Origin: Desulfomonile tiedjei DSM 6799
GTDB lineage: Bacteria > Desulfobacterota > Desulfomonilia > Desulfomonilales > Desulfomonilaceae
Length of the DNA: 64,000 nt
Direction of reading: 5' to 3'
Assembly: GCF_000266945.1 (NCBI RefSeq)
Contig: NC_018025.1
Location: forward strand, 1,612,001 to 1,676,000
Part shown: positions 2,826 through 28,895 of the stretch, piece after piece
Position numbering within the stretch: position 1 is the first letter of the stretch
Layout of the letters: every line of letters begins with the position of its first letter
Translations under genes and position numbers: made by a program
The notes under the pieces: generated by a model
The model's input: only the letters and a program-made list of their open reading frames with translations
What the model was told of the DNA's origin: nothing
Databases searched by the model: none

Positions 2826-3827
2826 ATGAAAAGCTTGGATGCCTCTCGGCTGCAAGCACTACGAAGCCGTGAAATCATACTCGAAACTCTCGAAGATCGC
2901 GTGGTGCTGGATGCTTCCATTCCTGTTGAAGCTTCCCAGGTTGCCTCAGCTCAGGAACAAGCACACGATGACGTGTCAAGCAATGCGGTCGAGCCTCTGG
3001 AAGCGATAAACTGGTTCGACGGACAATGGCACTACTACGGTGATGGATGGTGGTATCAGCGATGGCCGAACAACTGGGATTCCTGGTACCATGGACCGCA
3101 TCAATGGTATGCGCAGGAACTCTCTACAGGCGCATGGTTCTGGTACGACGACGTCGAAAATCGCACATGGGAACCCTGTTGGCAGTGGTACTACGATACT
3201 CAGTGGATTTATAACGACAGCATAGGAACCTGGTACTACACGGACAGCAACCACTCTTTCTGGCATGACATTGCCAGCGACACCTGGCTTAAGCAGTCCG
3301 GCAGCTCATGGATCGCATGGAATCGAGGGGACACCGGAACTCAGGCAGATCAGATCATCGAATACTGGATTCTGCACTACGTGAACGACATCAGAGTTGC
3401 AAACGGCTTACCTGCCTTTGTCTCCAATGCCAATATCGATTGGGTCGGAGAAATCAACACTGACAATATCTGCAATACCCACGTGTTCGCGCATGAAAGC
3501 ACGGCCTTCCCTGCCGGGTGGCAAACCCTTACCGAGCGCTACGCTCAAGTCGGCTGGACAGGCTGGGGTTCAGGCGGCGATGTGGGAGACAATCTCTATG
3601 CCGTTTACTACAATACTATCGGCGATTACAACTGGAACAGTTATTCCGATCTACAGTTGAAAGACATCGCATATGATGTGGTGTACTCTTGGGTTTATGA
3701 CGATGCTGGTAGCAACTGGGGCCACAGAGCCATAATTCTGAACGAGAATAATTGGGATGTGTTCTATGCGGGTGTTGCGGCGCAAAACGGCGTGGTTACT
3801 ATGACATTCTCGCAATACAATCTCTGA
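2826..3827 (+). CDS. Trp-rich LEPR-type surface protein with CAP domain
   Basis: 333-residue protein, start supported by GAGGAGGG at 2813-2820. Residues 22-30 (LEDRVVLDA) form an LEPR-XLL-like motif, known from the N-termini of large secreted or surface proteins. Residues 62-165 are extremely rich in Trp, Tyr, Asn and Asp in short repeats of the type DGWWY and STGAWFWYDD. Residues 175-333 resemble a CAP/SCP (PR-1) domain: an early HVFAHE, then GDNLYA in the place of GENL, and W-GHRAIIL before a final AGVA strand. No classical signal peptide is seen. A paralogous Trp module lies in 27357-28838. Export and wall or sugar binding are inferences; CAP proteins have varied roles. Confidence 0.8.
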   Translation: MKSLDASRLQALRSREIILETLEDRVVLDASIPVEASQVASAQEQAHDDVSSNAVEPLEAINWFDGQWHYYGDGWWYQRWPNNWDSWYHGPHQWYAQELSTGAWFWYDDVENRTWEPCWQWYYDTQWIYNDSIGTWYYTDSNHSFWHDIASDTWLKQSGSSWIAWNRGDTGTQADQIIEYWILHYVNDIRVANGLPAFVSNANIDWVGEINTDNICNTHVFAHESTAFPAGWQTLTERYAQVGWTGWGSGGDVGDNLYAVYYNTIGDYNWNSYSDLQLKDIAYDVVYSWVYDDAGSNWGHRAIILNENNWDVFYAGVAAQNGVVTMTFSQYNL

Positions 3828-11108: not shown

Positions 11109-11329
11109 TTCAAAAAATAGGACTCTTGGTTGCCAAGATATAAGAGTCCTGATAGAGGGGGGATGCACGTCTGTCAGACTCTCTGCAGGAGTCGGGCAGA
11201 GGCACCGGTAGATCGTTCGTCCCTTGGTCCTCTGAGACTGCCCGGCAGCTGGATCACCGGAGGCCTTCGTGTAAAAAGCCCGAACAGTCGCCTGGACTCG
11301 TTGAGAAGTCCGTATCCACAAGGGTGGGA
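11109..11329 (+). ncRNA. Predicted bridge RNA of IS110 copy 2
   Basis: Sequence identical to the copy-1 bridge RNA. The putative guides are at 11218-11224 (CGTCCCT, left target), 11240-11248 (GCCCGGCAG, right target), 11284-11291 (ACAGTCGC, right IS end) and 11318-11322 (ACAAG, left IS end). For this insertion the right-target guide pairs perfectly over 9 nt, because the flank reads CTGCCGGGC. The last guide runs into the purine-rich ribosome-binding site of the transposase. Confidence 0.75.
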
Positions 11330-11337
11330 TGTTACAC

Positions 11338-12279
11338 ATGCATGAAGAAGTTTTTGTTGGCATAGATATCTCTAAAGATCAGTTGGATGCGCATGTGCTG
11401 CCAAAAGGCATGCACACCACCGTCAAGAATGACACTCAAGGCATCGACTCGCTGATTGAGATCCTCCACGCAGAGACCCCCATGGTAATCGTGATGGAAG
11501 CCACCGGAGGCTACGAGATAACCGTTGCGGCCCAGTTAGGTCTCGCCGGCCTGCCGATCGCTGTCGTCAACCCTGGTCAGGTGCGGGACTTTGCCAAAGG
11601 CATCGGAAAACTCGCCAAGACAGACGCCATCGATGCTTATGTGCTGGCACGCTTTGCCCAAACGGTTAGGCCCATACCGAAGCCGCTGCCAACGGAGGAC
11701 GAAAAGCAAATCAAGGAACTCGTAACACGTCGAAAGCAGCTTGTTGATTTGCGTGCATCAGAAAAGAATCGCCTCCATCGAGCCCGTTCCAATCGCGTGC
11801 AGCGCAGCATTCAAACGGTCATAGCAGCCCTAGATAAGGAAATCGAAGACATCGATAAAGATGTCGATGACCTTATCAGGAAATCGCCTCTGTGGCGTGA
11901 AACAGAGGAACTCCTCCGAACCTTCAAAGGCGTGGGCCCCATAACTGCCAGAGTGCTCATGGCAAAACTGCCCGAACTGGGACATGTCAGCCGTCATGAA
12001 ATCAGTCGCCTCGTCGGCCTGGCGCCTCTCAACAAAGACAGCGGAAAGAAGAAAGGCAAGCGCGAGATTTCGGGTGGACGGGCGGATGTACGCTCAACCC
12101 TGTATATGGCTGCAGTCGCGGCCATAACGTCCAATGTAGTCATCAAGCCTTTCTATCAACGCCTCATTGAGGCTGGAAAACCTTTCAAGGTTGCCATCAC
12201 GGCTTGTATGCGTAAGATGATCGTCATCCTAAACGCAATGCTCAAGAAAAAACAGCCTTTCCAGGTAGTTTTTCCTTGA
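11338..12279 (+). CDS. IS110-family transposase
   Basis: About 313-residue DEDD/serine recombinase. The N-terminal RuvC-like domain shows FVGIDISKDQLD, VIVMEATGGYE and KTDAIDAYVLARFA, the acidic residues expected of the IS110 DEDD site. A coiled coil follows (about residues 130-195). The C-terminal Transposase_20 domain has FKGVGPITARVLMAKLPELG, LVGLAPLNKDSG and REISGGRADVRSTLYMAA, where the catalytic serine of this family lies. The ATG at 11338 is preferred because AAGGGTGGG lies 9 bases upstream; 11329 is an alternative. The enzyme would use the adjacent bridge RNA to choose its target. Confidence 0.95.
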   Translation: MHEEVFVGIDISKDQLDAHVLPKGMHTTVKNDTQGIDSLIEILHAETPMVIVMEATGGYEITVAAQLGLAGLPIAVVNPGQVRDFAKGIGKLAKTDAIDAYVLARFAQTVRPIPKPLPTEDEKQIKELVTRRKQLVDLRASEKNRLHRARSNRVQRSIQTVIAALDKEIEDIDKDVDDLIRKSPLWRETEELLRTFKGVGPITARVLMAKLPELGHVSRHEISRLVGLAPLNKDSGKKKGKREISGGRADVRSTLYMAAVAAITSNVVIKPFYQRLIEAGKPFKVAITACMRKMIVILNAMLKKKQPFQVVFP

Positions 12280-26759: not shown

Positions 26760-27356
26760 GCGCTTTCGAAGGATTCTGCAAAAAAATTCTTCGTTGGAAC
26801 GCGAGGTAAATTATTGGTGTAGTCGTAGTCGCAAAATCGGACAAACGGCATGCAAAGCCCAACGAATCGTTCCGATTTTTGCACTGCCTCGAACTTAGCC
26901 GTAGTTTGGAATGAGCAGCTCTGTTACAGACTCTCGCACGAAGTATCTTTCGTCGATGAGTAACGCGTTTTCACGTGCTCGATTCTTGACCGTCCGTAAA
27001 GATCTCCGATCCGTTGTTCTCCGACAGATGATCTCTGCGGTTCCTCGCTTCGCGTTGTCTTCAGCCTTGTGGTAGGCCTAATCCGGATAGCTGAAGAGGA
27101 TCAGTCAGTATCTCGCCCGATGATCTCGGAACGCCGACTCGCTCTTGCTCTGAGTTCAATTTGTCTTTATTTTCAGAATGCCTGAGAAAATGCTTGCACA
27201 CGTAATCGAAAAAAAATTGACTCCAGCCCGTTTTTCGGTATTCGATTATGATTCATGTTTGCAATTCTGAATTGGAAACTGACTGCCGCTATCGATGCCC
27301 ATCCATGCGGATTATGGAGAAGCCCAATTCAATGAACCAACAACAGAGGGGGAATT
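26760..27356. other. Intergenic region before second LEPR protein
   Basis: About 600 bp between divergent genes. No MITE or C/G-tract repeat and no credible ORF. AT-rich stretches at 27165-27260 probably hold the promoter of the Trp-rich protein gene. Nothing more specific can be called. Confidence 0.4.
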
Positions 27357-28838
27357 ATGTTCGTGAGAGAAATGGTTTTAGAGCAACTTGAGGAGAGAAT
27401 CGTTCTTGATGGCGCGGTTGCCAATGCGCATGACGTCCAGGACCAAACGTCTCATACCGATTTGGTGGACAGCCTCGGCTGGATCTATGTCGAGAATGAT
27501 TGGTGGTTTAATGATGATGGGTCTGGCTGGTGGTTTAACCAAAACACTGGCTGGTGGTGGAATCAAAATGATGAATGGTGGTTCAAGAACGACAAAGGTT
27601 TTGATTACTGGTATCACGGGGTTCATCAGTATTGGGCCGAAGAGAATTCAACAGGTGCCTGGTTCTGGTGGGACGATGTGAATGACCACACTTGGGAAGC
27701 CGCGTTTAGCTGGTCTTACGACTGGGATAATCGGATGTGGTGCTGGAATGACTGGAATGGAAGCCAATATTTCAGAGATTCATCGCACTATTTTTACCAA
27801 TCACATGATTCATGTCAGATTCATGTAAATCTAAACGGTCAATGGTATGAAAATCCGGAAGGACTACCGACGAATATAGATTTATATGATGGTAATTGGC
27901 ACCAAATGGATGCTGTTGAATCATTCAGATACGGGAATCATTACGGACATTGGGGGTATGAATGGGGATCCAGGATAAATGGTCAACTGTATAGAGATGT
28001 CATATATTATCCTGACGAATCCAATGACCATGGGTATAGCTATATTTATTATGTTTCTAACGGGCAAATAATAGGAACTTACCTTTATGTCTCAGACGAT
28101 GTGGACTATTTGGGAAATGGGAAATTTCTGGCCATTAGCATTGAAGGTCATACAGCCACGTGCAAATTATGGGATGTTTCTGTCAGACCAGAAAGTGCCA
28201 GTGATGATAGATTCTTATTGGAATGGACCGGCTACAACATGCTATCGGATTTTGATTATTTTGATGATCCTCTTAGGGTTCTGTTCATAAACACGACACA
28301 AGAAAGTTCAAATTATAAAATAAGCTACTTGGAAAATAACACTATCGTTTTCAAGTACTGGGACAGCAGTGATTTCACAATCGGCGAACTGGTATCGGAT
28401 TTGCGGTCGCTCTCTCAGGCTTTTGCTCGCCAAATCGACACAGTAGCAATTGATGATCATGGGTATTACAATGTTATAAAAATTGGAGACGATTACGTTT
28501 CTTATGGACAACCACAAACAGGATCAGGCTGGACTTCTCGGCTTGTTACTGAATATGAAAGTGCCTTTCGCGAATGGGGTAGTCTTATGTCTTCGGACGG
28601 CCAGATCCAGTTTTATAACTGCTACGTGGCAGGTGGTTCGGGAGATATTGGCGCATGGAGCAAACAATTGCTGTCGACAATATCTCAATATACAAATGCT
28701 GACGTGTTCGCTAATGACGATCTCGCTAAAGTTGTCTTTGATTCTAATACGGGGGCATTGGTGTCTGTCGAAAATTGGGACGCTGACTGGAGATCAAACA
28801 CCAGCCTCACATTTGACTCTCTTTACCTTTGGGCATAA
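27357..28838 (+). CDS. Trp-rich LEPR-type surface protein, second copy
   Basis: 493 residues, with GAGGGGGAATT before the ATG. The N-terminal LEPR-XLL-like motif is LEERIVLDGA (residues 11-20). Residues 43-140 hold about twenty tryptophans in short repeats of the type DWWFNDDGSGWWF and TGWWWNQ. The block YWYHGVHQYWAEENSTGAW aligns with YHGPHQWYAQELSTGAW of the protein at 2826-3827, so the two share a module of about 70 residues. The C-terminal 330 residues are unlike that protein, lack a CAP domain and match nothing I recognise. Codon use is more AT-rich than in its neighbours, suggesting acquisition. Export and glycan binding are inferences. Confidence 0.78.
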   Translation: MFVREMVLEQLEERIVLDGAVANAHDVQDQTSHTDLVDSLGWIYVENDWWFNDDGSGWWFNQNTGWWWNQNDEWWFKNDKGFDYWYHGVHQYWAEENSTGAWFWWDDVNDHTWEAAFSWSYDWDNRMWCWNDWNGSQYFRDSSHYFYQSHDSCQIHVNLNGQWYENPEGLPTNIDLYDGNWHQMDAVESFRYGNHYGHWGYEWGSRINGQLYRDVIYYPDESNDHGYSYIYYVSNGQIIGTYLYVSDDVDYLGNGKFLAISIEGHTATCKLWDVSVRPESASDDRFLLEWTGYNMLSDFDYFDDPLRVLFINTTQESSNYKISYLENNTIVFKYWDSSDFTIGELVSDLRSLSQAFARQIDTVAIDDHGYYNVIKIGDDYVSYGQPQTGSGWTSRLVTEYESAFREWGSLMSSDGQIQFYNCYVAGGSGDIGAWSKQLLSTISQYTNADVFANDDLAKVVFDSNTGALVSVENWDADWRSNTSLTFDSLYLWA

Positions 28839-28851
28839 ATCGTTCGGACCC

Positions 28852-28895
28852 AAAAACCGGCTTTTTTCTGAATGGCGCGCAAAGCCGGTTTTTTG
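28852..28895 (+). terminator. Intrinsic terminator
   Basis: AAAACCGGCTTT (28853-28864) pairs perfectly with AAAGCCGGTTTT (28881-28892), with further T residues, 14 bp after the stop codon of the Trp-rich protein gene. It is a clear Rho-independent terminator. Confidence 0.85.

Follow-up and report, generated by a model that had tools for sequence, protein, structure and literature searches.

The gene at 27357-28838 (hereafter M01) encodes a protein of 493 aa in which a front composed of a LEPR box and a Trp-rich module, recurring in about 20 proteins of the same genome, is followed by a C-terminal DUF4347 domain. The protein family, the repeat anatomy of its front, the DUF4347 assignment, the conserved His/Cys dyad within that domain, and the linkage of LEPR/DUF4347 with M50-HlyD were established by computation. 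From these data and from gene neighborhoods, we infer export by an M50-HlyD apparatus, binding by the Trp module, and a protease activity with its target; accordingly graded, our main reading (probability of roughly 0.55) is that M01 is a surface or secreted protein whose LEPR tag would be read by the M50-HlyD apparatus, whose Trp module would mediate binding, and whose DUF4347 domain would be a cysteine protease. An unnamed Trp-rich repeat module is spread over about 20 genes of one species and is combined there with different cargo domains.

The window, i.e., the whole 64,000-nucleotide stretch that was analyzed, corresponds to positions 1,612,001-1,676,000 of a host chromosome of 6,500,104 bases (the assembly comprises 6,527,027 bases, including a second contig). 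M01 is a single open frame on the forward strand and is monocistronic (Table 1). The arms of its terminator (28855-28864 and 28881-28890) and the end of the T run (28894) were read by eye; this terminator is missing from the list of the automatic scan because its loop is longer than the limit of the scan. No riboswitch or other known RNA was found 5' of the gene.

Table 1. Coordinates of M01, its parts and its sister gene within the window
Feature	Position	Strand	Basis
Ribosome-binding site of M01 (AGAGGGGGA)	27345..27353	+	Read by eye in sequence
M01 gene (LEPR box, Trp-rich module and DUF4347; 493 aa)	27357..28838	+	
LEPR box LEQLEERIVLDGAV, residues 8-21, proposed targeting tag	27378..27419	+	LEPR-XLL model, alignment, hydropathy
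Octamer Trp repeats DWWFNDDGS-GWWFNQNT-GWWWNQND-EWWFKNDKG, residues 48-81	27498..27599	+	
Aromatic repeat unit, single, 59 residues (92-150)	27630..27806	+	Unit profile, E 8.9e-24
Linker or beta-rich segment, residues 151-304	27807..28268	+	
DUF4347 domain, cysteine-protease-like, residues 305-475	28269..28781	+	Pfam; extent from alignment to relatives
His368 codon (HG motif)	28458..28460	+	Invariant in alignment; on HG of 9qpe
Cys422 codon	28620..28622	+	Invariant in alignment; on YGC cysteine of 9qpe
Intrinsic terminator of M01 (AACCGGCTTT ... AAAGCCGGTT, then T run)	28855..28894	+	Read by eye
Sister gene M17 (LEPR box, short Trp module, CAP-like C-terminus; 333 aa)	2826..3827	+	

The Trp-rich front and its paralogs

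In our comparison, M01 and M17 were 45% identical across residues 4-148 (E 5.9e-18), in line with the module that the initial annotation had described as common to both proteins. In a search of the host genome, the family was found to share residues 1-153 of M01, and after extraction and alignment the front was present in 20 proteins, two of which are identical, with a weak 21st member (M23) near position 4,286,500. The module itself had been put at about 70 residues; a shared module stands, but its length had to be revised to residues ~38-150, to which the LEPR box at residues 8-21 is added.

More specifically, the front consists of three layers, namely, the LEPR box, an array of 8-residue Trp repeats (octamers), and one to three aromatic units of ~55 residues. 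Octamers of the type GWWxxxxx number four in most members and five in M11 and M14, are lacking in M15-M18 and M20, and vary between the arrays of other members by entire 8-residue units. By means of a unit profile, we counted 31 aromatic units across 19 proteins, with up to three in tandem per protein and the consensus YWAxExSTGxWFWWDDVxDxxWEPAFTWF...WxYNDWNGSxYY...FYQDH; the short module of M17 has one such unit and no octamer array. The module thereby extends well past the two genes in which it was noticed, as far as the host genome is concerned, and no match was obtained outside the species in scans of genome contigs and viral sequences, in tblastn searches of plasmids and phages, or in profile searches of the phylum and the family.

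The idea that this module is a new anchor domain is possible. In our proposal, octamers and ~55-residue units would together form a beta-rich aromatic binding element, amplified within the species, that would hold a wide range of cargo domains at one common surface or polymer. We also considered whether these proteins build the Desulfomonile collar (PMC7773648) and do not argue for it, as a genome of the same genus (G403, 86% complete) gave no match to the module.

Two observations concern the way in which members of the family are copied. A perfect inverted duplication of 5295 bp (100% identity) connects G000:C1:5106700-5112000 and 6419800-6425200, carries the identical pair of LEPR-Trp proteins M08 and M09, and reaches the ends of the compared stretches, so that it is perhaps longer. 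In addition, the 5' regions of M03, M07, and M13 (loci L010, L014, and L020) have no Rfam match and are 75-82% identical over 107-265 bp, an upstream identity that suggests that these genes were duplicated together with their promoters.

The DUF4347 C-terminus and the exchange of C-termini

The C-terminus of M01, which had been listed as unrecognized, matched the Pfam family DUF4347 (PF14252) with 31.7 bits over residues 360-456, above the gathering cut-off of 24.6, and reached 33.2 bits in the genome-wide search. Judged by its sequence, it is a DUF4347 domain, and the formerly "unknown" part of M01 now falls into a named protease-like family. The preceding segment (residues 151-304) had no family match in the Pfam search, its final ~24 residues align with the paralog M18, and the predicted structure of residues 1-300 was unusable (pLDDT 37). 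Within the host genome, the C-terminus matched M19, M11, M18, M12, and M21, all of which carry DUF4347 or DUF4347-like domains. M17 was not among the matches at E <= 1, which agrees with the initial view that the two C-termini are unrelated; a CAP identity for the M01 C-terminus was ruled out, there being no alignment to the CAP-like part of M17. The CAP-like label of M17 in turn rests on sub-threshold matches, and a solved relative of that C-terminus was looked for and not found. One of the matching proteins, M19 (L023 3575-7522), is a LEPR protein with DUF4347 directly after the box, FG-GAP repeats, and no Trp module, and adjoins the LEPR-Trp protein M16.

Both H368 and C422 are invariant across 16 aligned DUF4347 sequences. 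When the 16-row profile was compared with the PDB, the top match was 9qpe (Tce1, a "DUF4347 domain-containing protein"; E 0.00086), and in this alignment both the HG motif and the Cys of the proposed dyad fall on their counterparts. Tce1 and Tce2 have been described as putative cysteine proteases with a fold like that of the TcdB protease, with mutation of the active site abolishing the toxicity of Tce2 to yeast (PMC13323088), and PA0256 (Tce1) is reported to contain DUF4347 (PMC8262886). A model of the M01 domain was of medium confidence (pTM 0.67, pLDDT 64). Secreted C11 proteases scored near the top (rank 3 in Foldseek; ranks 1, 2, and 4 in VIA, Z 6.1-5.2), all fold matches being weak (Foldseek E 5e-3 at best, VIA Z ~6) with unrelated folds close behind. 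These data are consistent with proteolytic activity of the M01 domain, which we picture as a clan CD-like cysteine protease that would use the dyad H368/C422 to cut surface or matrix proteins, possibly including the LEPR-proximal part of M01 itself or of its siblings.

We consider it unlikely that the domain is instead catalytically dead or structural, e.g., a binding scaffold, and that M01 is an adhesin. Such a role would fit the adhesin-like repeats that, in place of DUF4347, end most paralogs, as well as the loss of the HG motif in some DUF4347 relatives, whereas H368 and C422 are retained in all aligned copies of the host genome although these share only ~25-30% identity.

The initial annotation had proposed a conserved front with variable effectors, and modular exchange of C-termini across the family is supported by our data because the C-termini vary, comprising DUF4347 (M01, M11, M12, M18, and M23), ELWxxDGT propellers (M02, M06, and M14-M16, with M11 having both ELWxxDGT and DUF4347), cadherin/Ig repeats (M03-M05, M07, M10, and M13, M07 additionally having FG-GAP and M04 a polysaccharide deacetylase), and the CAP-like type (M17); the classes of M06, M10, M13, and M15 were assigned from motif counts. 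In the tree of the front, DUF4347 C-termini occurred in both well-supported clades, requiring 5 changes, of which at least 2 are forced; the DUF4347 and ELW classes were scattered, and the cadherin class was clustered. As DUF4347 immediately after LEPR is the usual arrangement in relatives, the domain may have been present in the ancestor and dropped many times, instead of having been acquired again and again.

The AT-rich second half of M01 had been read as a sign of transfer. The compositional part of that statement is correct, the second half having GC 0.414 and GC3 0.387, the first GC 0.463 and GC3 0.535, and the other genes of the window GC3 of 0.51-0.61. Recent transfer is not supported, since the closest C-termini lie in the same genome and in the same bacterial family (L068 and L069); moreover, no donor was found, and the paralog M05, which has a cadherin C-terminus, shows a similarly low GC3 (0.399). 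A recent horizontal acquisition fused to a resident front, which the GC3 difference from the neighboring genes would favor, therefore appears very improbable to us. Elsewhere in the window, two copies of a transposase gene, which we take to be IS110-like, are 98.4% identical over 1236 bp; the copy at 1580-2529 is split into two ORFs, and that at 11329-12279 is intact.

The LEPR box and its link to an M50-HlyD exporter

Against the LEPR-XLL model (NF012209), M01 scored 14.3 bits, below the curated cut-off of 17, and its siblings M08, M09, M17, and M12 scored above it (20.4-19.6 bits). Hydropathy analysis showed that LEPR proteins lack a hydrophobic segment: the N-terminus of M01 has no hydrophobic signal segment, its maximal 12-residue mean hydropathy being 0.78 versus 2.9 in L068 and L069. 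The latter two proteins (from G405 and G403, respectively, of the same bacterial family) combine aromatic-rich regions with DUF4347 and have a Sec-type signal peptide but no LEPR box, as would be expected if the box were an alternative export tag. M01 itself is probably exported.

Gene-neighbor analysis linked LEPR/DUF4347 genes with M50-HlyD. M50-HlyD was present in 14/16 genomes with DUF4347 versus 7/379 other genomes (395 genomes of the phylum; p = 7e-19), and, within the family, in 8/8 LEPR-positive versus 3/10 LEPR-negative genomes (p 0.004), Fisher values that overstate independence because the sampled genomes are related. In both DUF4347 genomes without M50-HlyD, the DUF4347 proteins have no LEPR box. 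A LEPR-type gene adjoined 11 of 20 examined M50-HlyD loci (10 of these 11 with DUF4347), and it is frequently the giant LEPR-DUF4347 genes that are found in this position. For instance, a LEPR-DUF4347 gene of G312 is followed by HlyD, OEP, M50-HlyD, and HlyD genes, a four-gene set that recurs within the family; an M50-HlyD fusion, HlyD, and OEP, the combination looked for in a LEPR-linked exporter, thus lie in one locus. The HExxH motif of M50 was retained in 5/5 members checked. The host genome has two M50-HlyD loci (L131 10494-14317 and L132 8231-13866, at G000:C1 ~4,278,500 and ~1,287,000), in which some components of the exporter set were not found in place. One of them lies ~5 kb from a gene combining LEPR, aromatic, and DUF4347 regions; most LEPR genes of this genome, M01 included, do not adjoin an exporter.

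These neighborhoods suggest that LEPR-type proteins leave the cell via a little-studied exporter. The targeting role once ascribed to the entire front is supported in part, with the LEPR box as a better candidate than the rest: by itself it is present in related genera and is the only part of the M01 front found outside the species, and it is linked to the exporter. We propose that the box would act as an N-terminal targeting tag recognized by an export apparatus of M50-HlyD, HlyD, and OEP. As for the reader, a PqqD-like (RiPP-leader-binding) N-terminus of M50-HlyD was examined and set aside as a lead only, since 2/14 members matched (best E 0.005), below cut-off and without PDB support. A second SecA as energizer was ruled out, the host genome having one SecA.

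It is doubtful that LEPR proteins follow the ordinary type I route and leave through an HlyB-type ABC transporter by way of a C-terminal signal, with LEPR serving retention or processing. The cadherin/Ig repeats of many LEPR/DUF4347 giants are typical of type I adhesins, a full HlyB-type gene is among the other exporters of the host genome, and L091, a DUF4347 protein without LEPR, has RTX-like repeats in a genome without M50-HlyD; however, the gene linked with the LEPR giants is M50-HlyD, and the C-termini of the paralogs have no common end. Returning to export through M50-HlyD, we hold its widest form tentatively, at slightly less than even odds: LEPR would be a SecA/M50-HlyD-type export signal, DUF4347 its resident protease, acting in maturation or at the surface, and the ~20 species-specific Trp-rich proteins a set of cargo-swapped surface proteins.

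Comparison with known systems

The octamers resemble OCRE (PF17780, RBM5/RBM10) in being 8-residue aromatic repeats that align in register (E 0.014), with Trp where OCRE has Tyr. Membership in OCRE was rejected, as the best score in the genome was 14.5 bits (E 0.27) and that of M01 11.7, compared with a Pfam cut-off of 24.7, and the likeness is probably convergent. ELWxxDGT-repeat and cadherin/Ig surface proteins are matched by the cargo domains of the siblings, and these domains are absent from M01. With LEPR-XLL proteins (NCBIfam NF012209, LEPR-8K), M01 shares the N-terminal motif LExLExRIVLDG; unlike them it is short rather than giant, and it stays below the model cut-off that its siblings pass. 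With Tce1, M01 shares the DUF4347 domain, the His and Cys dyad, and the HG and YxC motifs, but Tce1 is a type VI effector, whereas in M01 DUF4347 comes after the LEPR box and the Trp module.

The exporter itself is closest to the secondary SecA_DEAD / HlyD-M50 / OEP module of Kamneva et al. 2015 (PMC4452313). The module likewise comprises an M50-HlyD fusion, more HlyD, and OEP, and lacks an ABC transporter, as does the LEPR-linked locus; no protein substrate is named in the part of that article used here. Its SecA-containing version is present in Methylobacterium extorquens AM1 (PMC4452313). It differs in its second SecA, and as genomes of the family as a rule have one SecA each, the LEPR-linked exporter would be a version without it. 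The comparison connects, in a way open to test, an N-terminal orphan motif of giant surface proteins in bacteria with an exporter lacking a known cargo; if it is true, experiments could directly address how LEPR proteins in general are exported.
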